Below the pieces are notes generated by a model that had not been told where the DNA came from, did not search any database, and saw only the letters and a program-made list of their open reading frames with translations. Of a stretch of DNA of 32,234 nt, positions 5,160 to 30,835 are shown one piece after another (the stretch's first letter is position 1; every line of letters begins with the position of its first letter). A program made the translations under genes and the position numbers. Source of the stretch: a virus; IMG/VR virus record IMGVR_UViG_3300006192_000737, positions 1-32,234 of that record; one strand, given 5' to 3'.

Positions 5160-5814
5160 CAAAAGCCTCCTGAAATTCGATCGATGGCATGCCATATCGC
5201 AGGGATTGCAAGGTCAGAGCGCCGTTATCATCGTCGACCAGTCGCCCGATCATGGTCGGGCGCAACCGAAGCGACGCAGCAGCATAATCACGGCGCAGCG
5301 TCGGCGAACAACGAATTGTCGCAACAGATGCCGCCCAGGTGATCCCGGTAACGATATACGGATGATCCCCCAAACCGAAGTAGCATCCCGCTTGAAGCAC
5401 AGGGCCATACGTGCCGAAATCGGCAGTGATCACCCGGCCCCCTTGAGGCGCTGTGACGAGCACCCCCACCAGATCATCGGTCACATACAAAGCGCCATCG
5501 GAAAATGAGGTGCCATCGGTATGAGGTGTCTCACCGGCCATGATCTGGGCAGCCGTCGCTGCGTACCAAAGATCGAAGAGCGGTATACGCACCAGATTGG
5601 CGCGCCCTTCAAGGGCGGCATGAATGGCGCGATAGGCAAGCACATCGTCGCCTTCCAGTGCATCGAATTGCATGGTGAGGCCGAACGGAGGGCGGATCGA
5701 AGGCACGGCCTGCGTAAAATCAGTCAGGCTGGTGCTTAGTCCGAGGGTATGGCGAGGCGGGCGGATAGTGATATCCTTGGGAACCAAAGTGGTCGGCCAA
5801 TCGAACACCGTCAT
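5143..5814 (-). CDS. Distal tail protein-like (position of Dit / gp12 of gene transfer agents)
   Basis: 223 residues, directly after the tape measure gene and overlapping it by ATGA. In siphoviruses this slot normally encodes the distal tail protein that joins tube to tip. The sequence is beta-rich with no low-complexity region. WPTTLVPKDITIRPPRHTLG near the N-terminus and GCYFGLGDHPYIVTGI later fit a jelly-roll-like tail protein, but no diagnostic motif is visible. The call rests mainly on order: tape measure, this gene, hub, peptidase-like, gpJ-like. Confidence 0.58.
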   Translation of the reverse strand: MTVFDWPTTLVPKDITIRPPRHTLGLSTSLTDFTQAVPSIRPPFGLTMQFDALEGDDVLAYRAIHAALEGRANLVRIPLFDLWYAATAAQIMAGETPHTDGTSFSDGALYVTDDLVGVLVTAPQGGRVITADFGTYGPVLQAGCYFGLGDHPYIVTGITWAASVATIRCSPTLRRDYAAASLRLRPTMIGRLVDDDNGALTLQSLRYGMPSIEFQEAFDGPFS

Positions 5815-8252
5815 GATCCGCGCCTCGCCAGATTATCTTTGACGCGAGAACCCACATTGGCGTCATAGGCTGACAACCCTTGCTGCACGCCTGCCCGCAC
5901 CATCTCCATGATTTCCTGGTTGCCGCGCGCGCCTGTGACGGCCACTTCGAGTTTGCGCGGGCTACCATTTTGCCCGCGTGCCGGGTTCGGCACGACCTGG
6001 ACGCCATTGCCAGTGGCAAGCACTCGTTCTGGCCCTTCTTCTCCGACAATCCCCCAGTTCCCGGAAGGAATGGTTCCGCCGTCTGCAAACAGTCCGGCAT
6101 ATTGCGGGTCACTGATCGTCGAGGCCGCATCAGCCGATAGCGATGTGCTGACTGATCCACCGCCTCCGAAAATTGAGCCTAGCGAACTGAACAAGCTCCC
6201 AAATAGACCACCGCCTCCACCGCTGCTGCCAGAGTTTGTGCTGCTAGCCTTGGCCAAGGCATCAGCGATTGGCTTGATCAATACCTGCTGGATAAACAGA
6301 TCGATCAGTCCCTTGAGCAGGGGGTCCTTCACGCCCATGCGCTTGGAAATGGTATCGGTGATCGATTGCTGCACATAGTCGAGTTCGTCGACGATCAGCA
6401 GTTCGACCTTATCGCCAATATTCGCCCGATCGGATTGCAGCCCCGCTGCATATGAGGCGAGAGGTCCCGCGCTGCGTTGAGACAGGCCTTCCCGCGCGGC
6501 AGCCTGCTGGCTTCTCAGCTCCTGGCGTGCCTTGGCCGCATCAGCGACTTGGCCGCTCGCGATTTGCTGCTCCAGCAGATTGCTCTGGATCTGTTGCTGG
6601 ATTTTGAGCGCCTCGGCTTCGAGGCGAGCGCGTTCTTTCGCATTGGTCGAAACCTGAGCCCATGCTTCCAGCGTCGTCGCCTGACGTGCCAGCATGTCAT
6701 TCGCCAGTTGCGCTTCGGCCTGCTGCTGCTGTCGGCCAATCTGGGTCTGGAGCAAGCCCGCCTTGCCCACCAGGATCGTGCCATCGTTCGATCGCTGGCC
6801 ATAGAGGCCATCCAGCGCGGCGATCAGCTGCTTTTTCTGGGCCTCGCTGTAGTCCTTGTTGGCGCGGATTTCGGCCTCGCGCTGGTCGCGCTGGTCGCCC
6901 AGCATCTGATACGCGATGTCCGCGCGTTCCTGGGCCGAGGTTGCCAGCGCCTGGCGCGCAGCCAGTTCCTGGCTATCAATCGCATCCATGTCCTTGAGGA
7001 ACTCGGCATCGATATCCTCTTCGGACTTTCCTGACCGAGACTTGCGCGTCTTCTTGGACTGGGCAGAGCCAGCTTGGCGCAACGACGGATCGAGCACACC
7101 TTCTTTCAGGCTCTTCTCGATGGCGTCAGCCACCTTCTGCTTTTCCGGGTATGACACCCCATCAGCCACGGCCCTGAGAAAGTCCTCTTTGGTGACTGCA
7201 AGGCCGCTGAAATCAAGCCCCTCGGCCCTCCGCGCGGCCGCTGCACCGCTCACACGCCCAGCGCGCATATCTTCTACAAGCTGGCGCACCTGGGATTCGC
7301 GCCCCATCGCATCGCCGACATTGATACCCAGTGCGCCCAGTGCCTTTTGCCCGGTCGAAAGACCAAGGCTACCTTGCCCAAATCGGTCCATGGTGGACTG
7401 GGCATTGGTTTTTTCCGATTGTGCCTGCGCGCGCAGATTAATCGCCATCAGCTCTGCATTGAGCTTGAGCATATCGTTCTGCGACTTGAGCTTGCCAGTG
7501 GTGAGGTCAAACATCTGCCCGAGCACACCTTGAGCATCGCTCAGACCATTCGATGCCATCTCGACCTTTTTCATGGCATCTTCGGTTTCGAGCAGACCGG
7601 ATACCAGCGGCCCCAGCACCATCACCGCAGCCGAGATCGCAATGCCCCACGGCCCACCCAGGAACCGCGCGAAGCTGCTACCTTCTCCTGCGAGCAGTTG
7701 CACTGCACCCGCCACCTGGCCGATCTGGCTCGCGAATATCTGCTGGGGCCGCATGCCCAGCGAGTACATAGTCGACATGTCGCCCAGCTGCTGGGTCAAC
7801 TGCATCAGGCCAGCCTTCTGCGCACCTGATGCACCCGTCGCGGAATTCGTCGCCGCGATGTGCTCACGCAGCACAGACTGCGCCTTGCGATGCTCATCCT
7901 CGAACTGAGCGAGGCCCGCTTTGGTTTGCAGTATCTGCCGGTTATAATCTTCCAGCGTAATCGTTCCGGCAGCGAGCGAAGCCTTGGCCAGATCTGTTTC
8001 AGCTTTGGCTGTGACTTGGGCCGCCGCAAGCGCATCGATCGCCGTTCCGGCTTTCAGCCAGGCCTGTGCCCCGCGATCACCGGCTGTCGCCGCCTCGGTG
8101 ATCTTGTCTGCCAGCCCGACCGCACTGCCAGAACAAGCATCGAGCTTCACGCCCAGCCCATCAGCTGCGACCTTGGCCTTGTCCAGTCCGGACGCATAGC
8201 CTCTGTCGTCGGTGCGCAGGTAGAGTACCGCGTCGCCCAGCGTTTCAGGCAT
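5811..8252 (-). CDS. Tail tape measure protein
   Basis: About 813 residues. Three starts are possible: GTG 8261, ATG 8258 and ATG 8252. I prefer 8252 because AGGG then lies eight bases upstream. The N-terminus and middle are long, helical and rich in Ala, Gln, Lys and Glu. PQQIFASQIGQVAGAVQLLAG followed by a hydrophobic segment (about residues 202-225) matches lambda gpH-type tape measures. The C-terminus has a Gly/Ser-rich linker and then GIVGEEGPERV, a common tape-measure ending. By the usual rule of about 1.5 angstrom per residue the tail would be near 120 nm. It follows the chaperone genes with an 8-bp overlap. Confidence 0.9.
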   Translation of the reverse strand: MPETLGDAVLYLRTDDRGYASGLDKAKVAADGLGVKLDACSGSAVGLADKITEAATAGDRGAQAWLKAGTAIDALAAAQVTAKAETDLAKASLAAGTITLEDYNRQILQTKAGLAQFEDEHRKAQSVLREHIAATNSATGASGAQKAGLMQLTQQLGDMSTMYSLGMRPQQIFASQIGQVAGAVQLLAGEGSSFARFLGGPWGIAISAAVMVLGPLVSGLLETEDAMKKVEMASNGLSDAQGVLGQMFDLTTGKLKSQNDMLKLNAELMAINLRAQAQSEKTNAQSTMDRFGQGSLGLSTGQKALGALGINVGDAMGRESQVRQLVEDMRAGRVSGAAAARRAEGLDFSGLAVTKEDFLRAVADGVSYPEKQKVADAIEKSLKEGVLDPSLRQAGSAQSKKTRKSRSGKSEEDIDAEFLKDMDAIDSQELAARQALATSAQERADIAYQMLGDQRDQREAEIRANKDYSEAQKKQLIAALDGLYGQRSNDGTILVGKAGLLQTQIGRQQQQAEAQLANDMLARQATTLEAWAQVSTNAKERARLEAEALKIQQQIQSNLLEQQIASGQVADAAKARQELRSQQAAAREGLSQRSAGPLASYAAGLQSDRANIGDKVELLIVDELDYVQQSITDTISKRMGVKDPLLKGLIDLFIQQVLIKPIADALAKASSTNSGSSGGGGGLFGSLFSSLGSIFGGGGSVSTSLSADAASTISDPQYAGLFADGGTIPSGNWGIVGEEGPERVLATGNGVQVVPNPARGQNGSPRKLEVAVTGARGNQEIMEMVRAGVQQGLSAYDANVGSRVKDNLARRGS

Positions 8253-8580
8253 CGCCATCACCCTTCGGCATGATCACACCAATACCAAGCGCTCGCAATT
8301 GATCGGGGGTGGCCTTCTTGGCCTTGGGCTGGCTGGTGTCTCCACCGGATACCCGCTCGCGCAGTTCGCGCAGCATTTCTTCGGCGTCCTCGCGGGCATA
8401 TCCCCCCATCGCCAATCCCTGTACGCGCAGGGCAGCCAGATGCTCTCCGGCTTCAAGGCGAGGCATCATCATCACGTATGCGCGGACCAAGGCCGCAGGC
8501 GCTTCAGCCAGCCACCACTGCGGCGCCCCGCCATAGAACCGGCTGAGCTGGGGGAGGAGCTTTCCCCAGTCGGCAGGGCC
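8245..8580 (-). CDS. Tail assembly chaperone, frameshifted C-terminal (T) part
   Basis: The only start-like codon giving a free-standing ORF is a TTG at 8490 (81 residues). Upstream, the same frame continues with clearly protein-like sequence: GPADWGKLLPQLSRFYGG, then WWLAEAPAALVRAYVMMMPR. That reads like the C-terminal domain of tail assembly chaperones, and no ATG or GTG lies in a suitable place. This frame is -1 relative to the G gene (8472-8984) and overlaps its end. I infer a G-T fusion made by a -1 shift near 8555-8580, giving a product of about 246 residues spanning 8245-8984. I found no canonical X XXY YYZ slip site, so a sequence error or strain mutation is also possible. Confidence 0.68.
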   Translation of the reverse strand, partial: GPADWGKLLPQLSRFYGGAPQWWLAEAPAALVRAYVMMMPRLEAGEHLAALRVQGLAMGGYAREDAEEMLRELRERVSGGDTSQPKAKKATPDQLRALGIGVIMPKGDGDA

Positions 8581-8984
8581 ATCCCGGCCGCCTTCGCGAT
8601 CGCTCCTGCCACGCCGAGGCGATTGCGCAGCAGAAGCCCGGTAAAAACATCCGCGATCGCCTGCTTGTGCGCACCACTCAGCTTCACGAAGATATCGTCG
8701 GGCACGCCTACGGCTACACGGCGTGCAAGGCGGTCGATCAGGTCTTCCAGCTCGGTCTGGTCTTCGGGGCTGTCGATGTCATGGCTGGCCAGTTCGTTGA
8801 TGCGGCGGCCCCACCGACCGAACCGCGTGCCATCCAGGATCGACAGTTCATCCGGGCTCATGATCTCGAAGCGCATGCCATCGATCCGGATGGCAGGACG
8901 AATGATCAGGGTTTCGAGATCGAGCAGCGGCGCGGCCCTGTCGGCCTGTGCACCGCTGTTTTCGGGGGTTTCGGGCGTCTCCAT
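8472..8984 (-). CDS. Tail assembly chaperone (G-like)
   Basis: 170 residues, starting METPETPENSG. It lies between the tail tube gene and the tape measure gene, the standard slot for tail assembly chaperones. The centre is helical and acidic (SPEDQTELEDLIDRLARRV, then AHKQAIADVFTGLLLRNRLG), with no catalytic motif. The last 36 residues (after AGMALP) become Ser/Arg-rich and look unlike the rest, consistent with the biologically important reading moving to the -1 frame. Reading can extend upstream to 9047, but that stretch runs through the palindrome at 9022-9039, so I prefer 8984. The ribosome binding site is weak (GGGC). Confidence 0.74.
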   Translation of the reverse strand: METPETPENSGAQADRAAPLLDLETLIIRPAIRIDGMRFEIMSPDELSILDGTRFGRWGRRINELASHDIDSPEDQTELEDLIDRLARRVAVGVPDDIFVKLSGAHKQAIADVFTGLLLRNRLGVAGAIAKAAGMALPTGESSSPSSAGSMAGRRSGGWLKRLRPWSAHT

Positions 8985-9021
8985 GCCCGGTGGTATGCCC
9001 GCGCTATCGCAGGGTCTGCGC

Positions 9022-9039
9022 CCCGGACACATGTCCGGG
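9022..9039. repeat. GC-rich palindrome, copy 3 of 3 (upstream of tail chaperone)
   Basis: Arms CCCGGACA and TGTCCGGG flank a 2-nt centre. It lies 38-55 nt upstream of the chaperone start and after the terminator at 9075-9112. On the minus strand the right flank continues GGGGCGC, identical in the copies at 14509-14532 and 22497-22520. No U tract follows. Confidence 0.85.
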
Positions 9040-9074
9040 ACGGGCAACTTCTCGACATGGTCCTGATGGGAAGA

Positions 9075-9112
9075 AAGGGTCCCGCAGCAGACCCGATCAC
9101 TGCGGAACCCTT
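9075..9112 (-). terminator. Rho-independent terminator after tail tube gene
   Basis: Arms of 13 nt (AAGGGTTCCGCAG and its partner, 12 of 13 pairs) with a 12-nt loop. On the minus strand the stem is followed by TCTTCCC within a pyrimidine run (CCCTTTCTTCCC). It lies 49 nt after the tail tube stop. It likely reduces readthrough so that abundant tube protein is made in excess over chaperone and tape measure. Confidence 0.75.
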
Positions 9113-9160
9113 ACGCCGATCGGCGCTGGCGCGCAACGACTGCGCTGATCGGCGATATGA

Positions 9161-9757
9161 TCAGAGCGCTGCCTGATGCTGGAACACCAGAGATCCGAAG
9201 CGCAGATCCTCGGTCACCGCAGTCAGGTCTTCGAGCGCGGTAAATTCCAGCTGCACACCAGCCGGAACACCCTTGCGGTAGACGATTGCCGGCGAATTGC
9301 TGTTATAGCAGCGCGGCACCTGGTACTGGGCCACCATGCCATCGCCATAGGGACTGTCGCCTCGTGCCAACAGAGCATATTCGGTCACCGATTTCCCGCG
9401 ACTGAGCCCGAGTTTCTTGGTGCCGGCTTGTCCGACACCCGCTGCCGTAGTCGTCAGGGTGTTGGAATTGAGAGCCAGCTTCACCTGTTCGAGCGTGACG
9501 TCCCAGATCGTCAAACCGAACGTCAGGTCTTCTTCGCTGCGGAAAACCTTGACCGGACCAAGAGCCCCGCCGGGCCGCACTTTGTTGAGCGTCTGGGTGT
9601 GCGTGACAGTCACACCATTTTCGTCCTGGCTGCGTTTTCCACTCGTGCCCACCAGAACCCAGGCCATCGCCGGATCAGCCGTCACCAACGGGAACGCGGT
9701 GGCGACCGGCGCCAGCCACAGGGACAGTGGCTGCCCCACGATCTCATAAGGCTGCAT
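9161..9757 (-). CDS. Major tail tube protein
   Basis: 198 residues, beta-rich, with repeated short strands (KVFRSEEDLTFGLTIWDVTLEQVKLALN, then VQLEFTALEDLTAVTEDLRFGSLVFQ) typical of siphovirus tube proteins. The start at 9757 has AGGAG with a good spacer. It lies between the tail terminator-like gene and the chaperone pair, the normal place for the tube gene, and is followed by its own terminator, fitting a protein needed in many copies. Confidence 0.82.
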   Translation of the reverse strand: MQPYEIVGQPLSLWLAPVATAFPLVTADPAMAWVLVGTSGKRSQDENGVTVTHTQTLNKVRPGGALGPVKVFRSEEDLTFGLTIWDVTLEQVKLALNSNTLTTTAAGVGQAGTKKLGLSRGKSVTEYALLARGDSPYGDGMVAQYQVPRCYNSNSPAIVYRKGVPAGVQLEFTALEDLTAVTEDLRFGSLVFQHQAAL

Positions 9758-13116: not shown

Positions 13117-14442
13117 TTAGAGGCTAGTCACCGAGCTGAAGGCGGCCGGACGGAACACCGTCAAGTTGGCGCGCATGTCGGCGCGCACGGTCCGCTTGCC
13201 TTCGGTGAACTGGGTACCGACATAGCCGACCTGGACATCGACGCCCCGGCGCTCGAACAGGCTGATCCAGGCAGGCTGGAACGATCCGACGTAGCCGGTT
13301 CCGGCCGAGCCGGCATCCTGCTGCACGACCGGCAGTCCCCACAGGCGTTCCGGTCCAGCCTCGGCAGGCGATCCCCAGATGTAAACGCCATCGGCGGTAC
13401 GCAGCAGGCGCACGTTCTGCCAGTCGGTCGGGTGCATCACATGGTGCGTCGGGATGGCCCGCCCGGTGACACGGATGTTCGTCATCCCCTTGAAGAAGGC
13501 GTCCGGCACCGGATCGGTACCCCTGGCCTGGGTCTGGATGCCGACGACATTGGCGATCCCGCGCAGGTTCGGCGCGGTGCCGTTGCCGATCAGAACCTGG
13601 CGATCGAGACGCTGGCGCACGCCGAAGGTCAAGCGGCTGTTGATATAGCCGTTCATCATCGCGACGTCTTCGAGCTGCTCATCCGTCACGGGCAGGCTGT
13701 CGCCGATCTTCGCGATCGTGCCGGTGCGCTCGGTGAACGCGAACGCGCTTTCCGCATAAGCGCCGCCTTCAGCCAGCTCGGCTGCCGCATGGGTGCGGGT
13801 GGTTTCTTCCATGTACTTGATCGCGGCTTGCGCGGTCGGAAACATGGGAATGATGTCCAGCAGCTGGATCGGGCGAGTCGCGGCCTCGACGTAATTGGGC
13901 AGGCGCACGCTTTCCGGGGCGTAGCCCGCGCTGGTCGCCATCAGCGTCTTGCTGCCCATGGTCTCGAACGCGGCACCCATCGCGAGCATGTCCGACGGCA
14001 GCAGTTCCTGCAGCGTCAAACTGATCCCGCCCGGTGCGCCGGCCTTGGCATAGTCCTGGTAGCCCTTGCTCTCGGCCAGCATGTCGCCGAGCGACTTCAT
14101 TTCCTTGCGCTCGCCGCGTCCATCGCCCTTGCCGCCCGGCAGGCGGAAGCCACGCTGCGGCGCGTTGCGGGCCGCGTGTTCGGCCGCTGCCTTCTCGGCC
14201 GCGTCCAAGCGCTGCACGTGCTCGCCCAGTTCGTTGAGCTCGGCGTTCATCTGGTTGACCTTCTCGGCCACCGCGATCGAACCCTTCACGTCGGCGCCCA
14301 GGATGGTCACCTTGTTGAAGTCGTACTGCTTGCGGCCATCGCCGCCCGTCACCAGGGCCTGTTCGAAAACCTTGCCCAGCTCTTCCTGCTTGGTCGCCAT
14401 CTTCTGGCGCGCCTGCTCCAAATTCAGTTCCTGTACCGACAT
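13117..14442 (-). CDS. Major capsid protein, HK97 fold
   Basis: 441 residues. The start at 14442 (MSVQELNLEQARQKMATKQE) has GGAG with a six-base spacer; a longer reading to 14649 passes through the palindrome at 14509-14532 and is not protein-like. Residues 1 to about 115 are a charged helical delta domain, expected to act as scaffold and be cut off by the prohead protease. The rest matches HK97-type capsid features: LPNYVEAATRPIQLLDIIP, a long helix near YMEETTRTHAAAELAEGG, then RTGTIAKIGDSLPVTDEQLEDVAMM, a VMHPTDWQNVRLLRTADG A-domain stretch and a VQVGYVGTQFTEGKRTVRADMR end. Mu's own capsid protein (gpT) is not of this type. Confidence 0.9.
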   Translation of the reverse strand: MSVQELNLEQARQKMATKQEELGKVFEQALVTGGDGRKQYDFNKVTILGADVKGSIAVAEKVNQMNAELNELGEHVQRLDAAEKAAAEHAARNAPQRGFRLPGGKGDGRGERKEMKSLGDMLAESKGYQDYAKAGAPGGISLTLQELLPSDMLAMGAAFETMGSKTLMATSAGYAPESVRLPNYVEAATRPIQLLDIIPMFPTAQAAIKYMEETTRTHAAAELAEGGAYAESAFAFTERTGTIAKIGDSLPVTDEQLEDVAMMNGYINSRLTFGVRQRLDRQVLIGNGTAPNLRGIANVVGIQTQARGTDPVPDAFFKGMTNIRVTGRAIPTHHVMHPTDWQNVRLLRTADGVYIWGSPAEAGPERLWGLPVVQQDAGSAGTGYVGSFQPAWISLFERRGVDVQVGYVGTQFTEGKRTVRADMRANLTVFRPAAFSSVTSL

Positions 14443-14508
14443 GCCGATCTCCACTGCACCGCAGTCCACAAAAGACCGGGCCATATGGCGGCACTCGAAC
14501 AGGCCTAG

Positions 14509-14532
14509 CGCCCCGGACAGGCGTCCGGGGCG
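14509..14532. repeat. GC-rich palindrome, copy 2 of 3 (upstream of capsid gene)
   Basis: Perfect 10-bp arms CGCCCCGGAC and GTCCGGGGCG around AGGC. It lies 67-90 nt upstream of the capsid start. The stem is shared with the copies at 22497-22520 and 9022-9039 while the 4-nt loop differs (minus strand GCCT here, ATGT there). No U tract follows. Confidence 0.88.
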
Positions 14533-14702
14533 GGCTGGTTGTTCACGATGGATGGAAAGGCACCGCAGCGGCGCCGATGGATACCGGTCTAGCCGATGAA
14601 GGCCGCCGCTGACAACTGGGCGTGCGATACGGTGTCCAAAGAGCGCCAAATTGGCGTTTAAGAAGGGCTAAGAAGGCGGGTGGCGAGATTTTCCGGGGGA
14701 AC

Positions 14703-21362: not shown

Positions 21363-21801
21363 GGTCGGTCCTTTTCTGCTGGGTGCTGGCGCGGCTCTCT
21401 GCGCGGGATACGGCGGCATCGGCATTGGCCCGCGCGCGGTCGAACAACGTCTTCAGGCCATCCCGCTCGCTGGCAAGGGTATCACGCTCGGCCACCAGGC
21501 GTTTCGCGCCGGGGCCGCAGCTGTTGAGCATGATGAAACGCGCCGTCGCATCCATGGTGGGCAGCAATGTGCGGTCGCATTCTGCAGCCTGCCGTGCGGC
21601 AGCGACTTCCAGGGCGATCACCGGCAAACAGTCGTCCAGACTGCTGCCCTTGCCATCAGCGGGTTTGCTGGCGGCCATCGCGCAACGTTCAGCGGCATCC
21701 GCCAGCCTCTTCTGGTGGAAGCGGTCCTGGATCAGCCAGGCGCTGGCAAGCATCCCGGCAGCCGCAGCAGCAGAGGCGGCGATCTTGGCCCAGCCGATCA
21801 T
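21274..21801 (-). CDS. Rz-like inner-membrane spanin (i-spanin)
   Basis: 175 residues. An N-terminal membrane anchor (IGWAKIAASAAAAAGMLASAWLI) is followed by a helical periplasmic part (KRLVAERDTLASERDGLKTLFDRARANADAAVSRAESRA) and a Cys-containing end (HIVCDAGCLRQLAQ). Overlap with the endolysin stop (ATGA) and nested Rz1-like lipoprotein support the call. It has several Cys, suggesting disulphide links in the periplasm. Confidence 0.8.
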   Translation of the reverse strand: MIGWAKIAASAAAAAGMLASAWLIQDRFHQKRLADAAERCAMAASKPADGKGSSLDDCLPVIALEVAAARQAAECDRTLLPTMDATARFIMLNSCGPGAKRLVAERDTLASERDGLKTLFDRARANADAAVSRAESRASTQQKRTDHAQGTIAAAPRDGDGHIVCDAGCLRQLAQ

Positions 21802-22463
21802 CGACCGAGTTCCTCGGCGCGGGCCAGCCAGCCATTGAGGAATCGCTTCTGTTCAGGATAGCGAGCGACGATGTTGCGATATCGTTCACGCACTGCATCG
21901 CGATAGGCTGAAACCAGACCGGTCACCCCAAAGCTGTTCGATTGCACCACCTCGCGCAGCGCGGCCATCGTGATGTCTCCGATACCGCCATCGACCTTGA
22001 GAAGCGACTTCTTCGCGGTTGAGACAGGAATGAGCAGAAGGCCCGTATTGATGGCTCGCTGTAACAGCTTGCGTGCTGCTGTCAGGCCACCGTTCACGCC
22101 CTGGTCGAACAGCATTTCACCGATCGGCACCGGAAGACTATCGGCGCCTAGCGGCTCCCAGAAATGCTTGAGGTAGAGGTAGACCGCATCACCACGCGTC
22201 AGCTTGCGGATATCGACTCCATCGATATCGCCGTCCATGTCCAGGTCGAAATCCGCGATGCCATCACCATCGCTGTCGAATGCGCCAGCCACTGCCAGGA
22301 AGCGCAGCGATATGCCAAATTTAGTGGCACCGCCCCGATCGAGGGGATCGTCTACGAAGCCGCCCTCGATCAATAGCAGCTTCTTGATCGCTGCCGCGTA
22401 GCGGGTCGAATACCCTTGAACCAGGATATCCAGATCGGTGGGGGTGGAGGATGTGCCGCTCAT
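21798..22463 (-). CDS. Endolysin, GH108-like N-acetylmuramidase
   Basis: 221 residues, starting MSGTSSTPTDLDI. IEGGFVDDPLDRGGATKFGIS (residues 32-52) is the glycosyl hydrolase 108 signature; E33 is the expected catalytic acid. AVNGGLTAARKLLQ-type and DGGIGDITMAALR segments are the family's second and third conserved parts. A stretch at about residues 63-84 (DSDGDGIADFDLDMDGDIDGVD) has two EF-hand/dockerin-like Ca-binding loops inside the catalytic domain. No signal peptide is seen, so it needs the holin to reach the wall. The start has a poor binding site; a GTG upstream in the palindrome region is an alternative. Confidence 0.85.
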   Translation of the reverse strand: MSGTSSTPTDLDILVQGYSTRYAAAIKKLLLIEGGFVDDPLDRGGATKFGISLRFLAVAGAFDSDGDGIADFDLDMDGDIDGVDIRKLTRGDAVYLYLKHFWEPLGADSLPVPIGEMLFDQGVNGGLTAARKLLQRAINTGLLLIPVSTAKKSLLKVDGGIGDITMAALREVVQSNSFGVTGLVSAYRDAVRERYRNIVARYPEQKRFLNGWLARAEELGR

Positions 22464-22496
22464 AGCGGCGTTTGTGGCCGTGCAGGCAACAAGGCG

Positions 22497-22520
22497 CGCC
22501 CCGGACACATGTCCGGGGCG
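22497..22520. repeat. GC-rich palindrome, copy 1 of 3 (between mor and endolysin)
   Basis: Arms CGCCCCGGACA and TGTCCGGGGCG (11 bp) around CA. It fills the 70-bp gap after mor, 34-57 nt upstream of the endolysin start, where Mor-driven transcription would be expected to begin. The same stem recurs at 14509-14532 and 9022-9039 in the same orientation of flanks. No U tract follows on either strand. Confidence 0.88.
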
Positions 22521-22533
22521 GCCAAGGATCACA

Positions 22534-22926
22534 TCAGAACAGGGAGAGTTGACAGCTTGTATCGCTGCCCGTGGCAAGGCGCGCGCGCCTCCGCCGTATC
22601 GCTCGGATGGTGTAGCGCGTCGCCATCGCGATGTCACGTTCCGACGCGCCAGCCTCGATCATCGCATCGACACGCGCGCGCATCTGGGCAGCATGGCCAG
22701 TCGGGCCCAAGGGCAATTCGAGCCTCAGGCCCTTGATACCCATGGTCAGTTCGGCAGCAAGTGCACGGGCCAAGGCGACACCGATGAGTTTGCAAAGCCA
22801 GTGATCGCTGGGAGGTTCGGGCGGGATATAGACTTGAGTGCCGCCACGCGCCGCCGCGATCGCGAGGGCAGCATCTTCGCCCACTATGTCCGCGATTTCC
22901 TGCAGAATGCCCGGCAACCCACTCAC
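22534..22926 (-). CDS. mor: Mor-family transcription activator with C-terminal clamp-binding-like motif
   Basis: 130 residues. LPGILQEIADIVGEDAALAIAAARGGTQVYIPPEP (residues 4-38) is the dimerisation signature of the Mor/C family of Mu, including the GGT-x-YIP turn. The C-terminal HTH is near ASERDIAMATRYTIRAIRRRR (94-114). In Mu, Mor switches on middle transcription. Here it is the last gene of the early chain and is directly followed by the lysis genes; no second Mor/C homologue is seen, so it may drive late genes directly. Oddly, the protein ends QLSLF (126-130), identical to the consensus peptide that binds the bacterial beta sliding clamp. Confidence 0.88.
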   Translation of the reverse strand: MSGLPGILQEIADIVGEDAALAIAAARGGTQVYIPPEPPSDHWLCKLIGVALARALAAELTMGIKGLRLELPLGPTGHAAQMRARVDAMIEAGASERDIAMATRYTIRAIRRRRARLATGSDTSCQLSLF

Positions 22927-23210: not shown

Positions 23211-23392
23211 CAGTGAAACCACACGATGGCGAAGACGACACCAGCCCAGAACACCAGCAGGGCCGCCGCGAACAGCCGAATTTCCCGGATGCGGCGCATA
23301 TGCCTCTGCCGGTCGGCGTTGCCGATCGCGGGCCGATCGTGCCAGTCGAGCGAGGGACCGAAATTGCGACGTTCGGTATAGCGCCCGTTCAT
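23210..23392 (-). CDS. Small single-pass membrane protein
   Basis: 60 residues, starting MNGRYTERRNFGPSLDWHDR. The N-terminal 36 residues are charged; the C-terminus is one membrane segment (IRLFAAALLVFWAGVVFAIVWFH). Start and stop overlap the neighbours by 3 bp and 1 bp. In Mu this neighbourhood holds small toxic genes such as kil; a similar role here is only a guess. Confidence 0.58.
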   Translation of the reverse strand: MNGRYTERRNFGPSLDWHDRPAIGNADRQRHMRRIREIRLFAAALLVFWAGVVFAIVWFH

Positions 23393-24114
23393 GCCGCGTC
23401 TCCCGATCCCGAGGGGCCACCGAATGCGCGCAGCTTCTCGCCCAGCGCCTTCGCCAGGCGCTCGTAGTCGTCTGCCGTCCACGGCACCGCGCGCCCGTTT
23501 TCGATCCCGCACAGCTTCCAGGCCGCGTCGTGCAGCGCCCAAACCTGCGGCACCACACTCTTGTCTTTCAGCCTGATCAGGATCGCGTCGCACAGCGATG
23601 CTTGCAGCGCCAACGGCTCGAGGCGCTTGCCGGTTTCGCGATCATGCTGCAGCCATCCGCCGCGCTCGCCCATGCTCTTGAGCGCTTCGATCAGCCTGTT
23701 CGCGTCCGACTGCCGCGCCCATGCCAGCCGATCGCAACCCAGCTGCCGCTTGGCGAACGCTTCCAACGCCGCCTCGCTCGCATTGTGCACCACCCCCAGG
23801 TGGTGCAGCGAAATCCACAGCGCGCGGGCTTTGCGCGCCATCGGGTGCGTGGCGCCCTTGCTGCGCGGCAGCGGTTGAAAGCCCTTGCTCTTCATCCAGC
23901 CGAGAATGTTGTGAAGCTGGGTATCCGTGCAAGCGCGCAGGCTCATCTGTCCCGAAGCATCGAACACCGCTTGACGGTAATCATCTTCGTCGATCTGCAA
24001 CTGCTGTCGCGCGATCTGGATTTTCGCGATCATCGATCGGCGGTTCTGACTGGAGGCATCAAATTGGGCACGATGTGCCATATTGATAACCGGTGTATGG
24101 AGATGGCGTTTCAT
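23389..24114 (-). CDS. gemA: GemA-like regulator (Mu gp16, DUF1018)
   Basis: 241 residues. SMIAKIQIARQQLQIDEDDYRQAVFDASGQMSLRACTDTQLHNILGWMKSKGF (about 28-79) is the DUF1018 core. Then a mixed helical region with RKARALWISLHHLGVV follows. In Mu, GemA modulates host gyrase and gene expression. The ATG at 24114 overlaps the previous stop (ATGA) and is preferred to the ATG at 24126. It is longer than Mu gp16 because of the extra C-terminal part. Confidence 0.85.
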   Translation of the reverse strand: MKRHLHTPVINMAHRAQFDASSQNRRSMIAKIQIARQQLQIDEDDYRQAVFDASGQMSLRACTDTQLHNILGWMKSKGFQPLPRSKGATHPMARKARALWISLHHLGVVHNASEAALEAFAKRQLGCDRLAWARQSDANRLIEALKSMGERGGWLQHDRETGKRLEPLALQASLCDAILIRLKDKSVVPQVWALHDAAWKLCGIENGRAVPWTADDYERLAKALGEKLRAFGGPSGSGDAA

Positions 24115-24473
24115 ATGATCCTCCACCCAAATATCGCAACAAACACACCTATCGCCGACGCAACGATAAGAGATGTCCCAAGTATCCGGTCGATGACCTG
24201 GGGTGCCCCCTGATCATCAACTTCATCCACCAAAACTGGCAGCGTCATGCTCTGGATACGTGCTGCCATCACTTCGACAGCTGTAATGATGGAGTCAGGA
24301 TGGCATCGAGCCGTATCCCAATCGATCATTGTCGAGGTACGTGCGCCTGCCAGCGGCGTCGTAACACGGCCGACCACTTCCACCCCGACACCATTGATCT
24401 GCACCGAGATCTGGCGCTGTGGCATCGTCGCGGCATCAGCCATGACCGCCGCGCGGATCAGTTGCGTGATCAT
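24111..24473 (-). CDS. Tail-anchored membrane protein of unknown function
   Basis: 120 residues. The first 90 residues are soluble and look beta-rich (QISVQINGVGVEVVGRVTTPL, then MTLPVLVDEVDDQGAPQV). The last 24 are one membrane segment (LGTSLIVASAIGVFVAIFGWRII). Start and stop overlap neighbours by 4 bp. The usual Gam (host nuclease inhibitor) slot lies around here in Mu, but this protein shows no Gam pattern. No family recognised. Confidence 0.58.
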   Translation of the reverse strand: MITQLIRAAVMADAATMPQRQISVQINGVGVEVVGRVTTPLAGARTSTMIDWDTARCHPDSIITAVEVMAARIQSMTLPVLVDEVDDQGAPQVIDRILGTSLIVASAIGVFVAIFGWRII

Positions 24474-25432
24474 GCAGCACCCCCACGCATCGAGAGCTGC
24501 GACCAGGCCGCCTGCAAATCGTCCAGCGCCAGCGCCCGGCGTTCGCCCAACGCGATCATTTTTGCCAGTTCGACCGCAAAGGTAGCACCACGCAAACCGC
24601 CGGGGATTGTCGCGATCCGCACGATAAAGGCTACCAGGGCTTCGTCGTGGATGTCCCAGGCCGCTGCCAGAGCGATGGCATCGGCTTTGAGCGGCACGGG
24701 CCGGATCAGGCGCATCGACAGGCGGCTATAGAGCTGCGCGAACGCATCATCGCGGCCGCCACCTTCAATCCGCTTGAGCACCTTGATGTTCCCAAAGAAC
24801 GCAATGCCAAGATCGGCCAGATCGTTCCACGACCTGATTTCCTCGATTGCCTTCTCGCTCAAGTGTTGGGCTTCGTCGATGATCAGCAGCGGCATATGCA
24901 TGTTGCGCACCATCTCGCAAATCCGGAAGCTCAGCGCCTGGGGCGTGCCCTTCGGATTGCGTTCGCCAAGTGCGCGCAGCACCGCGATCTGCATGTTGTT
25001 CACACCAGCCGACGACGGCGTCATCGTCGCGCGGAACACGTTGGGATAGCAGGCGGTATAGTAGGTGCTGGTCTCAGTCTTGCTGCAACCAGCACCCGTC
25101 GCGGCGACCACCACGCGGCCCCGCTTTGCCCAGTGCAGCAACTGGGTCAGTTCCTTTGTCGTCTGGGTTTCATAGAACGGCGGAAGTTCCGGCAGTTCCA
25201 CAGCCATGCTGGCTTGCTGGTTGAGCTGCTGGCGATAACGGAACACCGCATCGGCCAGCTTCTTCTCATCACCAGCATAGCCCTTTGTGCTGCCGAACTG
25301 GGTCAGCGTTCCGGCAGGGATACCCACGCGCTTGGAGAGTTCTGACCAGGTGAAACCGGTCGACACGCGATGCTCCATCAACCAGGAACGCATCTCCTCG
25401 ATATCGATGGGCTGTGCGCTGGGGTCATTCAT
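24470..25432 (-). CDS. MuB-like AAA ATPase, target DNA activator
   Basis: 320 residues. An N-terminal HTH (about residues 28-50, WSELSKRVGIPAGTLTQFGS) precedes the AAA core. Walker A is ATGAGCSKTET (111-121), where the usual Gly before Lys is Ser117; Walker B is PLLIIDEAQHL (181-191). The C-terminal part matches MuB relatives that end in helical bundles. In Mu this ATPase binds target DNA, gives immunity and activates the transposase. It follows the transposase after a 76-bp gap with two hairpins, rather than an overlap. Ribosome binding site AGGAG with 9-nt spacer. Confidence 0.9.
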   Translation of the reverse strand: MNDPSAQPIDIEEMRSWLMEHRVSTGFTWSELSKRVGIPAGTLTQFGSTKGYAGDEKKLADAVFRYRQQLNQQASMAVELPELPPFYETQTTKELTQLLHWAKRGRVVVAATGAGCSKTETSTYYTACYPNVFRATMTPSSAGVNNMQIAVLRALGERNPKGTPQALSFRICEMVRNMHMPLLIIDEAQHLSEKAIEEIRSWNDLADLGIAFFGNIKVLKRIEGGGRDDAFAQLYSRLSMRLIRPVPLKADAIALAAAWDIHDEALVAFIVRIATIPGGLRGATFAVELAKMIALGERRALALDDLQAAWSQLSMRGGAA

Positions 25433-25508: not shown

Positions 25509-27482
25509 TCAATCCACCACTCTCAGATGACTGAGCGCAGCGAATACCTTGGCCTCGTGAGCTGGCGGTTCGGGGGCCGCTTGCACAGCCTTGATCGCAG
25601 CAACGCTGCCGCGATGGCGCACTGGGCGCACCACTTGCAGCTCGGGCATGATTGGTTCGGGGGATGCGGCCTGCACTGCTGCCACCTGGGCAGCGGTCAA
25701 CAGGTCTTCAGCTTCGGCTGCATCCCGGATTTTCTTGCGATACTCCGCTACGCGCTTGGCCGTAGCCTTGGCCTCGGCAGCATCCAGAAATTGCACGTCT
25801 CCCAGCAGTTGCGCCGTGCACAGATAGTGATCACCCTGGTCGTAGAGATGCACATCGCACAGCAGGTTATCTGGGTCGAACCGCACCGTTACGCGCTGGC
25901 CATGAAGCCGGCCGCATTCGGGTGACCAGTACCGGTTGCCGAACAATCGCACTTCGCCAGTGCGAGCATCGATCCGCCTTTGCTCGCCCGCCAGCAGTGC
26001 CTTGCGCATATGCTCGGGCGTCGCCTTGCCGATCGGCGCCACGGCATAGGATTCGGCGAACACATCGTCGAAGCTGCGGCCTCGCGCCGTTTCGGTGCGG
26101 CGTCCGACCTTGGCGTTGTGGTCTGCGATCCCCTTGTCAACCTGGGCCACGAACTCGCCCCATTCCACAGCCCGGCTGCCATAGTTTTCCGGCTTCGCCA
26201 TCGGGTTGTTACCCACATAGGCCCCGGCAAACGCCGGATGCTTGGCGATCCTGTCGCACATGTCGCGAAAGGCTCGCTCGATCGGCTTGGACTGGCCTCG
26301 ATAAGGTGTCGCCCAGTGTATTTGGATGCCCAGGCCGACCAATAGGCCGGTTGGGTCCTCTTCGCGCACCTTGAACCGGAAACGGGTGTTGGCTCCTCCC
26401 GTGATCCACTTGCTGGCAAAGGCCCGCCCATTGTCGAACACGCATTCCTTGGGAATGCCCCAGGTCTGAAACAGGTCGGCAAAGCACAGGCGTGTCTGCA
26501 TGGCCGATTCCTCGCCGCCTATGCGCCAGGCCAATACCTTGCGGCTGTAGATATCCTGGATCGTCACCATGATCGGGCGGATGATCCGGCCATCGCCGGT
26601 CTTCACGAACACGTCGAACTTATGGCCGTCGATGTTGACGACTTCCATTGCGTGCAGGTGGGCCACGGTGCGGCGCTGGGCCGGAATCGAGCGACGGAGG
26701 GCCTCGCTGCCGTGGCGTCGGAACAGCAGCACGCGCGGATCGATCTCGCGCTCGGCCTTGCGGCGCAGCGACCGTTCGGACGGCATCCGCAGCCCCCGTT
26801 CCTTGGCAATCGCAGCTGTCCGGTCATAGCAGCTGGTCATGGTCGGGGCTTCCAGCCGCAGGTAATCGCTCAGGAAGATGCGCCACAAATCTTCGTCGAT
26901 ATCTGCCTCGCGCCCACCGCCCTTGCGCTGCGGCGCCAGCGCAGGAAGCCGGTGATGTGGGGCCACGCCCTCTACCAGCTTGAGCCAGTTCCAGATCGTC
27001 TGGGCGCTCTTGCGGTGCTCATGTGCCAGAGCTGTGACCGCCAGCGTGCGTGACAGGCCAGATTGAAGCAGCGTATCGAACTGGGCGATGACCCGCGCGC
27101 GTGCTTCGGCCTCGGCCTTCACCGCGCCACTCTGGAGGTCATACCAGCGCCAGCTGGCAGCCATCTGATCCTCGGCTGTGACCAGCACGGTTTCGCCGAT
27201 CTTGCGACCCAGCTCGATCCGCGCTGGGCCGGGCAACAGCGACACATGGAATTCCAGGCCGCCGCCGCGCGCCTCACGCGGCCGGGCCAGTGGATTGCCC
27301 ATTTTGTCATGCTGGATCAGCCAGCGCGATGCGCGGGCATGGCGGTTCATGGCGCGTTTGTCGTGCGGCACGCCGGGTAGTTGCAGCTGCGCCAGCTCGG
27401 CCGCCGTGAACCACTCGCGCGGCTCGGCCTGATCGGCGAGCGTCGCGGCGGTTTCTGGTGTGGTGCGTGCCGGTTGCATCAC
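25509..27482 (-). CDS. MuA-like DDE transposase
   Basis: 657 residues. EWFTAAELAQLQLPGVPHDKRAMNRHARASRW (23-54) is the Mu-type N-terminal DNA-binding domain, followed by a second HTH region (about 130-180, FDTLLQSGLSRTLAVTALAHEH...). The catalytic core has D285 (VVNIDGHKFD), D350 (CVFDNGRAF) and E402 (KPIERAFRD); spacing 65 and 52 fits MuA (D269, D336, E392). The C-terminus is helical and would contact the ATPase partner and host remodeller. It catalyses cutting at phage ends and strand transfer for integration and replication. It begins at GTG 27482 (or ATG 27479), overlapping the previous stop. Confidence 0.95.
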   Translation of the reverse strand: MMQPARTTPETAATLADQAEPREWFTAAELAQLQLPGVPHDKRAMNRHARASRWLIQHDKMGNPLARPREARGGGLEFHVSLLPGPARIELGRKIGETVLVTAEDQMAASWRWYDLQSGAVKAEAEARARVIAQFDTLLQSGLSRTLAVTALAHEHRKSAQTIWNWLKLVEGVAPHHRLPALAPQRKGGGREADIDEDLWRIFLSDYLRLEAPTMTSCYDRTAAIAKERGLRMPSERSLRRKAEREIDPRVLLFRRHGSEALRRSIPAQRRTVAHLHAMEVVNIDGHKFDVFVKTGDGRIIRPIMVTIQDIYSRKVLAWRIGGEESAMQTRLCFADLFQTWGIPKECVFDNGRAFASKWITGGANTRFRFKVREEDPTGLLVGLGIQIHWATPYRGQSKPIERAFRDMCDRIAKHPAFAGAYVGNNPMAKPENYGSRAVEWGEFVAQVDKGIADHNAKVGRRTETARGRSFDDVFAESYAVAPIGKATPEHMRKALLAGEQRRIDARTGEVRLFGNRYWSPECGRLHGQRVTVRFDPDNLLCDVHLYDQGDHYLCTAQLLGDVQFLDAAEAKATAKRVAEYRKKIRDAAEAEDLLTAAQVAAVQAASPEPIMPELQVVRPVRHRGSVAAIKAVQAAPEPPAHEAKVFAALSHLRVVD

Positions 27483-29477: not shown

Positions 29478-29724
29478 CAGCGCTCTCCTGGCTGATGGGC
29501 GCGCGCGCCTCTTGGCGCAATTTCTCAATGGCCGGATCGAACCGCTTCTTGAGGCGATCATGCAACATCACCAGGCGCTGCCGTAACACCCGCACTTCCA
29601 GGCGCTGCGCCTTCGGAAGGCAGGGGAACATTTCGTCAATCCGTCTGATCTGAATGCCCAGCGCATTGATGACACTTTGCGTTTCAAACAGATCGAGCGT
29701 GGCGAAGGTGCTACCGCGCTTCAT
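29467..29724 (-). CDS. Small helical protein of unknown function
   Basis: 85 residues, starting MKRGSTFATLDLFETQSVINAL; a longer reading to 29796 is rejected because it runs back through the ParB-like frame. Predicted helical with coiled-coil character (RLEVRVLRQRLVMLHDRLKKRFDPAIEKLRQEA). Overlaps the ParB-like gene by 14 bp and the methyltransferase by 11 bp. No family recognised. Confidence 0.58.
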   Translation of the reverse strand: MKRGSTFATLDLFETQSVINALGIQIRRIDEMFPCLPKAQRLEVRVLRQRLVMLHDRLKKRFDPAIEKLRQEARAPISQESADAR

Positions 29725-30835
29725 TGTGTGCACTCCCTTCAATGCCGAACAAGGCGCTCTGAACCACGCCGCAGGCATCGTGCAGGGTGTCGTCATCGAT
29801 CTCGTTCTCGCCCGTCAGGAGCGAAGTGAGCACATGGAAAGCCGTCTTGAGCGCGGGCGTCGCCGGTCCAGCCGCTTCCTCGCCCAGATCGCGGCTAAGG
29901 ATGTCGCGCAGTTGCCGCTTCACTTCGGCATTCTTCAGCCCCTGCACGATCTGCGGCAGATACCGCTTCTGCTGAGGAGCCGTCAGACGACCGAGGTTAC
30001 CGACAACGGCCGACAGCGCTTTTTCGTCTTTCGTTGGTGCTCGCCCGGCAGGCACATCCACGCCTGCCAGGATGCGCGCATCGTCGGCGCCGATCTCGGG
30101 ATCTGCCAACAGCGCTTCGATCACGCGGCGGCGATCTGCTTCCTCGCGCACTTGGGCAATTGCACGCAGTTGCGCTGCGTTTTCGCCCACCACAGGGTGT
30201 CGGCTCAATGGCTCGATCAGATCGCCAAACGGCTCGATAATCAGGCGGAAAAGTTCGAGGTCACGATGGATCGAGCGACGCGACATGCCGAGAGCTTCAC
30301 CCACCGACTCTTCCCAGCCGTATACGTGTGCCACGGTGGCACACGTATCATCGACTTCCTCAGTCAGCGCTTGATCAGGGCGCATCTGGTGGGCTTTGAC
30401 CTTCTCCCAGCGCGCCTTGATGGCCAGCTTTTGCTGGGCGAGGCTGCCATGTTCACGCGCGATACGCTGTTGCGCTGCTTGAACCAGCGCAGCCGTGAAT
30501 TTCGCGCGCTCGATCGGTCCGAGAGGGCGACGGTGCAGGTTCTCCGACGCTTCCAGATCCGCAAGGTCTTCGGGCTTTCCAGAAACCTCGACCGCAAACA
30601 CCTGGATACCTTCCAGTCGGGCACCGACCAAGCGATGCATACCGGTCACAAGGCGCCATGGCTGCGCCTTGCTTTTGGACTGCGCCACCACCTTGATCGG
30701 GTCACGCTGACCATCCACGGCCATAAGCCGGCCGATCGCGGCGGCCTTGTCCTCATGCAAAAAGCCGATGCGCTTCCCTTCATCGACGGTGTTGGGATCA
30801 AGGGCAAACAGCTGGGCGTTCGAAAGGATGCTCAT
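29711..30835 (-). CDS. ParB/Spo0J-like protein
   Basis: 374 residues. The N-terminal ParB domain (about 12-110) includes GQRDPIKVV (42-50), WRLVTGMHRLVGARLEG (60-76) matching the G-x-HR CTP-binding box, and ASENLHRRPLGPIERA (96-111). The HTH follows at about 174-195 (EESVGEALGMSRRSIHRDLEL). The C-terminal part is helical (RDILSRDLGEEAAG...). No ParA partner is seen. Roles for lone ParB-like proteins in phages include DNA binding, gene control or segregation; I cannot tell which. The gene itself contains a 27-bp palindrome at 30322-30348. It starts with ATGA overlap. Confidence 0.84.
   Translation of the reverse strand: MSILSNAQLFALDPNTVDEGKRIGFLHEDKAAAIGRLMAVDGQRDPIKVVAQSKSKAQPWRLVTGMHRLVGARLEGIQVFAVEVSGKPEDLADLEASENLHRRPLGPIERAKFTAALVQAAQQRIAREHGSLAQQKLAIKARWEKVKAHQMRPDQALTEEVDDTCATVAHVYGWEESVGEALGMSRRSIHRDLELFRLIIEPFGDLIEPLSRHPVVGENAAQLRAIAQVREEADRRRVIEALLADPEIGADDARILAGVDVPAGRAPTKDEKALSAVVGNLGRLTAPQQKRYLPQIVQGLKNAEVKRQLRDILSRDLGEEAAGPATPALKTAFHVLTSLLTGENEIDDDTLHDACGVVQSALFGIEGSAHNEAR
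30322..30348. promoter_or_regulatory. 27-bp palindrome inside parB-like gene, candidate parS or operator
   Basis: Perfect 13-bp arms ATACGTGTGCCAC and GTGGCACACGTAT with a single G between. It lies in codons 163-171, just before the HTH region. A perfect dyad of this length is not expected from coding need alone. Its ligand could be the ParB-like protein itself; this is inference. Confidence 0.6.

Follow-up and report, generated by a model that had tools for sequence, protein, structure and literature searches.

A QLSLF tail, candidate ligand of the host sliding clamp, on a probable Mor/C-family late activator of a Mu-like transposable phage

The mor locus and its candidate operators

The window, meaning the whole stretch of DNA that was analysed, corresponds to an IMG/VR virus record 32,234 bases long, in which the genes for MuA, MuB, GemA, a Mor/C-family protein and an endolysin follow each other in this order. 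The genes needed for the argument are the following.

25509-27482, minus strand: MuA transposase (PF02914, E = 2.1e-54)
24470-25432, minus strand: MuB transposition ATPase (PF09077, E = 3.1e-14)
23389-24126, minus strand: gemA, a transposable-phage marker, upstream of mor (PF06252, E = 1.6e-29)
22534-22926, minus strand: gene for a Mor/C-family late transcription activator (mor), 130 aa, GTG start, assigned from PHROG_836, PF08765 homologues and AlphaFold2
21798-22463, minus strand: endolysin (glycosyl hydrolase 108), the first gene past candidate operator 1 (PF05838, E = 6.7e-19)
13117-14442, minus strand: major head protein, after candidate operator 2, with the start at 14442 inferred from the sequence (PHROG_10, E = 7.1e-47 for the open reading frame 13117-14649)
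8472-8984, minus strand: gene after candidate operator 3, with an inferred start METPETPE, upstream of the tape-measure gene (5811-8261)

Translation of positions 22534-22926 on the minus strand yields 130 amino acids with the C-terminus RRRRARLATGSDTSCQLSLF directly before the stop codon; the C-terminal residues are also given as ATGSDTSCQLSLF. A preliminary description, made from the sequence without database searches, had placed this protein in the Mor family, and the profile comparisons uphold that placement. The match to PHROG_836 ('late transcriptional activator', E = 1.8e-17) extends to the final residue, PF08765 is matched by 47 of the 51 members of the homologue alignment, and profile-profile alignment with Mu-type Mor/C proteins using hhalign, with the tails removed, gave 94.6% probability and E = 7e-8. 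By sequence and profile the protein is thus a homologue of the Mor/C family, while the window sequence alone scores 21.6 bits against the Pfam Mor cut-off of 24.9 and is sub-threshold. The AlphaFold2 model (50 sequences) has a confident core with a mean pLDDT of 88.6, and its final two helices form a helix-turn-helix, as is typical of the C-terminus in this family. Foldseek of the model against the PDB, where the Mor/C structures are 1rr7, 9l0y, 9l0x and 9vw8, returned weak, mostly helix-turn-helix-type matches and no Mor structure, so that the fold as a whole was not confirmed by this route. The gene probably encodes a Mor/C-family late activator of a Mu-like transposable phage and does the job of Mu C.

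Three dyad-symmetric candidate operators were located upstream of late genes, as would be expected of a Mor/C-type activator.

22500-22517, unstranded: candidate Mor operator 1, CCCGGACACATGTCCGGG, an exact dyad in a 24-bp palindrome (22497-22520) in the gap between mor and the endolysin gene
14512-14529, unstranded: candidate Mor operator 2, one mismatch, between the head protease and major capsid genes and in the same place in four relatives
9022-9039, unstranded: candidate Mor operator 3, an exact match, flanked by the major tail protein gene and the genes running up to the tape measure, likewise in four relatives

With up to three mismatches, CCCGGACAnnTGTCCGGG occurs three times in the window (at 22500, 14512 and 9022) against 0.21 expected. 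The placement of operator 2 was based on the protease match and on the sequence itself. Sphingomonad-type relatives carry three such sites in 4/8 of those searched and two in a fifth, compared with 0-1 for a reversed control pattern, and in the four relatives that were read the sites occupy the same gene intervals in the same order as in the window. Three copies of CTGACAnnTGTCAG (at most one mismatch) were present in 6/11 other viral contigs. A perfect GACA-n(1-3)-TGTC was found no more than 120 bp after mor in 19 of 69 alphaproteobacterial-type loci, against 0.4% of shuffles. The palindrome after mor was also considered as a plain terminator, which is disfavoured: it lacks a T-run and, in its rhizobial version CTGACAnnTGTCAG, GC-richness, and further copies precede the capsid and tail genes.

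The three candidate sites have their parallel in the lys, I and P promoters, which depend on C in Mu (PMC4461284), so that 'the late activator' is the most fitting name for the gene. A link between Mor and the expression of lysis and structural genes had been proposed in the preliminary description; the proposal is strengthened by the conserved trio of candidate operators, which precede genes for lysis, capsid and tail. In the window (22463-22508), as in several relatives (loci L001, L002, L006 and L013), 44-47 bp separate the operator centre from the ATG of the lysis gene. In Mu the activator site is at -43.5 (PMC4390567), and if this geometry applies, late transcripts would start almost at the ATG and be nearly leaderless.

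The C-terminal motif and its conservation

The C-terminal part of the protein is made up of three segments.

22564-22641, minus strand: helix-turn-helix, residues 96-121 (helices 96-103 and 107-121), from AlphaFold2, with homologues matching HTH_23 and other Pfam HTH families
22552-22569, minus strand: variable linker GSDTSC from the helix-turn-helix to the tail, differing among relatives in length and sequence while the motif is kept
22537-22551, minus strand: C-terminal QLSLF, candidate beta-sliding-clamp ligand, read directly, with the stop codon at 22534-22536

Translation and codon reading agree with the earlier statement that the protein ends in QLSLF after a GSDTSC linker, the codons at 22534-22551 being exactly CAA CTC TCC CTG TTC and the stop TGA. 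The pentapeptide fits the consensus of bacterial beta-clamp ligands, QxxL(x)F or QL(S/D)LF (PMC5371812). The last ten residues of the AlphaFold2 model are of low confidence (mean pLDDT 54), and the motif is accordingly predicted to sit in an accessible, flexible segment at the extreme C-terminus. No C-terminal motif of this kind was found in the 15 other window proteins checked, MuA, MuB and GemA included. Motifs of this type are thus no common trait of the phage's proteins; among those checked, the only other near-terminal case is QSALF, 16 residues before the C-terminus of a ParB-like early-region protein (29711-30835).

Mor proteins of close relatives end in QLSLF, QMSLF, QGSLF or QGNLF after linkers of differing length. 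Further family members were obtained from scans of viral contigs and GTDB genomes. Recruitment from loci used core-only queries with the last residues cut, so that the tail could not select for itself at that step, and the family was clustered at 60% identity into 105 clusters. The pattern Qxx[LMI](x)[FL] was present within the final 20 residues in 64 of these (61%), against 15/1280 other open reading frames of at least 200 aa from the same loci (1.2%), 4.0% of shuffled tails and 9/522 internal 20-mers. For the strict pattern Qxx[LM]F the count was 53/105 clusters, compared with 2/1280 other open reading frames (0.16%), 0.46% of composition-preserving shuffles and one among the 522 20-mers taken from inside the same proteins. 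A chance origin of QLSLF is excluded by this census against three backgrounds. Around 39% of clusters are without the strict motif, and many of those that belong to transposable phages retain a [DSP]LF remnant. The Mor of a Helicobacter prophage has no tail, and that of a Microcystis prophage has a weak SGQLF internal to a long C-terminal extension.

The tail is also kept over large distances. Mu Mor ends in RQYQPSLL (motif QPSLL) and Mu C in RRHQPDLFSPETPK (motif QPDLF). In an alignment of 17 proteins including both (30% mean identity), a proline and the tail leucine are the only invariant columns, and the tail glutamine is one of two further columns at 90% or more. Across 50 alphaproteobacterial-type members, Q126 and L129 are almost invariant. 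Conservation in related phages had been named beforehand as the check on the motif, and the QLSLF-type tail has passed it, being kept in close homologues, across the alphaproteobacterial family and in both Mu proteins, Mor and C. Among the 40 strictly terminal cases the glutamine is encoded by CAG 22 times and by CAA 18 times, and all six leucine codons are used; as the tail codons vary silently, selection acts on the peptide, and a DNA-level cause of the motif (an overlap or a repeat) was rejected on the same grounds. At position 2 of the motif these cases have Gly 15 times, Pro 6 times and Leu 4 times; Ser, Asp or Glu stands at position 3 in 23 of them. Gly or Pro instead of Leu at position 2 (21/40) may make binding weak.

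Restriction of the tail to transposable phages

PF08765 was searched in 399 sampled Pseudomonadota genomes and gemA in 80 of the genomes with a PF08765 match. Tails were read in 109 complete Mor-domain proteins, and gemA was scored as adjacent when within 3 kb. The motif occurs in 30 of the 43 Mor proteins with gemA and in 1 of the 66 without (odds ratio 150, Fisher p = 1.6e-15); the motif tail is restricted to transposable phages. A relaxed form (QLSFNF, QPAFDF, QMAFDF, TKDLF, TGDLF) is seen in several of the gemA-adjacent exceptions. Another exception comes from a tandem of two Mor genes, in which the first protein closes with QLSLF and the second has no tail. Tandem Mor genes after gemA were seen within one transposable prophage (locus L181, contig C31 of genome G423, 8255-9716).

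Mor-domain proteins without gemA mostly terminate directly after the helix-turn-helix. MuA, MuB and GemA were absent from ten tail-less loci (7-16 kb read), as judged with window-derived probes that can miss very distant homologues, and gemA together with other phage genes was present in 5/5 tailed loci examined. A large set of tail-less Mor-domain loci (L132-L134, L137, L139, L140, L142 and most of L189-L250) has no gemA nearby, and some genomes carry several tail-less Mor-domain copies. The MuB_C profile was tried as a second marker of transposable phages and dropped as too insensitive, having matched only 3/80 genomes. Mapped on a FastTree tree, the motif shows 14 changes and gemA 12, and the association is phylogenetically clumped. 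Supported branches gave 4 independent pairs, approximately 3 in the expected direction and 0 against, which alone is not significant, and phylogenetic replication of the link between motif and gemA is thin.

Probable clamp binding, rival explanations and known systems

Members of the family carry pentapeptide forms QxxLF (QLSLF, QPDLF, QGSLF) and, at the equivalent place, hexapeptide forms QxxLxF/L (QLAMDF, QLVMTF, QHSLDL, QGKLDL, QLSLDF). As sequences, the two together are the published definition of bacterial clamp ligands. The same pentapeptide has a tested counterpart: an IS1634 transposase from an alphaproteobacterium, with QLSLF placed at its C-terminus, binds the beta clamp of Acidiphilium, Leptospirillum and E. 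coli, and replacing Q and F of the wild-type motif with Ala abolishes binding (PMC4549789). In host genomes of the relatives, DinB ends in QLALAL (Sphingobium) or QLSLELPGL (Gellertiella), which indicates that the same hosts use such C-terminal ligands. Other alphaproteobacterial DinB proteins end in PDLFGTG or LDLFGH, weakened variants as in some Mor tails, and the host ImuB proteins have no such motif at their C-terminal end. From these resemblances we strongly infer that the Mor tail binds the clamp.

Replicative transposition loads host clamps onto phage DNA. We propose that the folded part of Mor probably binds the GACA-n2-TGTC dyad at three late promoters (lysis, head and tail) and, once bound, would activate host RNA polymerase there, while the flexible C-terminal QLSLF, kept by selection, would dock on the host beta sliding clamp (DnaN). 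Because clamps are loaded by replicative transposition, the tail would tether or concentrate the activator on clamp-bearing, actively replicating phage copies, and late genes would be expressed preferentially from replicated DNA and with the proper timing. In Mu, late gene expression follows the onset of replication (PMC4461284). Mu Mor activates host RNA polymerase as a dimer (PMC4390567) and requires the C-terminal regions of alpha and sigma70 (PMC4287176); for Mu C, RNA polymerase is the only partner needed to activate late promoters in vitro, and the contact is with the beta' subunit (PMC4461284). Since Mu C needs no clamp in vitro, the tail would serve tuning or timing and not as an absolute switch. 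The explanation as a whole, a late activator that binds the dyad and whose DnaN-ligand tail biases late transcription towards replicating DNA, has in our estimate a probability of about 0.6. That the tail's purpose is the coupling of late transcription to replication we put at even odds or slightly better.

The motif evidence would be identical if the tail bound the clamp to act on replication, either slowing host replication or repair or bringing the activator to host forks, and competition for the clamp cleft is known from the Caulobacter toxin SocB (PMC9690074). A sequence-specific activator with few operators would, however, be an odd inhibitor, and the tail sits on the late activator of phages whose own replication depends on the host clamp; an effect on replication is therefore unlikely. 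The tail could instead have another partner, namely RNA polymerase, GemA, MuA or MuB. A contact with the polymerase (sigma, alpha, beta flap or beta') that only resembles a clamp ligand would suit the requirement of Mor for alpha and sigma70 (PMC4287176) and of Mu C for beta' (PMC4461284). Yet Mor-domain proteins outside transposable phages, which presumably meet the same polymerase, are without the tail (1/66 with the motif), and the coexistence of penta- and hexapeptides is a clamp-ligand pattern, so that we regard a polymerase contact as distinctly unlikely.

Co-occurrence of the tail with gemA would be explained if it bound another protein of transposable phages (GemA, MuA or MuB), but a link through replicative transposition itself would predict it just as well, and the motif is that of a textbook clamp ligand. 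No case in which GemA recognises a motif of this kind is known to us, and a phage-encoded partner appears very unlikely. Finally, the conserved C-terminus could be a coincidence or a relic, functionless or purely structural (dimer packing, a degron), in keeping with the loss of the tail in several family members. This too is very unlikely: the linker drifts in length and sequence, but Q, L and F persist through silent codon changes, the tail is of low confidence in the AlphaFold2 model, and it is present in far-diverged branches.

Docking of Mor on the host clamp would have consequences beyond this phage. If the tails bind DnaN, the order 'replicate first, then make heads and lyse' gets a direct molecular cause, also in Mu, which has served as a model phage for decades. 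That transposable phages generally, Mu included, couple late expression to replicative transposition via Mor/C on the host beta clamp is a tentative extension, to which we give a little less than an even chance. If true, clamp-driven late transcription would have evolved independently a second time, in a system that uses the host's clamp; to our knowledge this would also be the first case of a host bacterial sliding clamp as co-factor of a sequence-specific activator, outside T4 with its own clamp. Among open-access papers, the scope of the literature search, no report was found on Mor or C together with the sliding clamp, and none that remarked on the conserved QxxL[LF] tails of Mor/C.

Ligands of the QLxLF type for the host beta clamp are known from other mobile elements, in the transposases or TnsE of IS1634, Tn7 and IS608 (PMC4549789, PMC5371812). 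Those ligands steer transposition, whereas the candidate ligand of the window phage sits on a transcription activator. In T4, late transcription is activated by the clamp (PMC2988020, PMC9690074), and the clamp epitope of gp55 is conserved, lies at the C-terminus and follows a divergent linker of 17 residues (PMC2988020). The analogy with T4 drawn in the preliminary description holds for the architecture, since gp55 has, and the window Mor would have, a C-terminal clamp epitope on a divergent linker of variable length in a late-transcription factor. It fails for the parts: T4 has its own clamp, gp45, and its epitopes are on the sigma factor gp55 and the coactivator gp33, which both bind RNA polymerase, whereas in the window phage the candidate epitope is on a DNA-binding activator and the clamp would be the host's. 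General profile scans found no phage clamp, gp55 or gp33 among the scanned window proteins. The coupling of late transcription to replication is proven in T4; in the window phage we infer it.

The closest comparison is with Mu itself. Mu Mor and C (PF08765, PHROG_532/836) share with the window Mor a homologous core, a dyad operator, which in the window phage is a candidate, and the same type of tail, and the genes have the same position beside gemA and/or lysis genes. Mu uses a relay from Mor to C and four C-dependent promoters (lys, I, P and mom; PMC4461284), whereas in the window phage one Mor/C gene is seen, with three near-identical candidate operators. Mu-type Mor/C proteins further have an N-terminal QxDLF-like motif that is absent from the window Mor: Mu C (locus L079, 1964-2386) starts with MQHDLFEHD, and QTDLF, QTDMF, QDDLF and QSELF were read in five other Mu-type loci. 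On this reading of their two ends, the Mu-type proteins may have two clamp ligands, compared with the single C-terminal candidate in the window phage.
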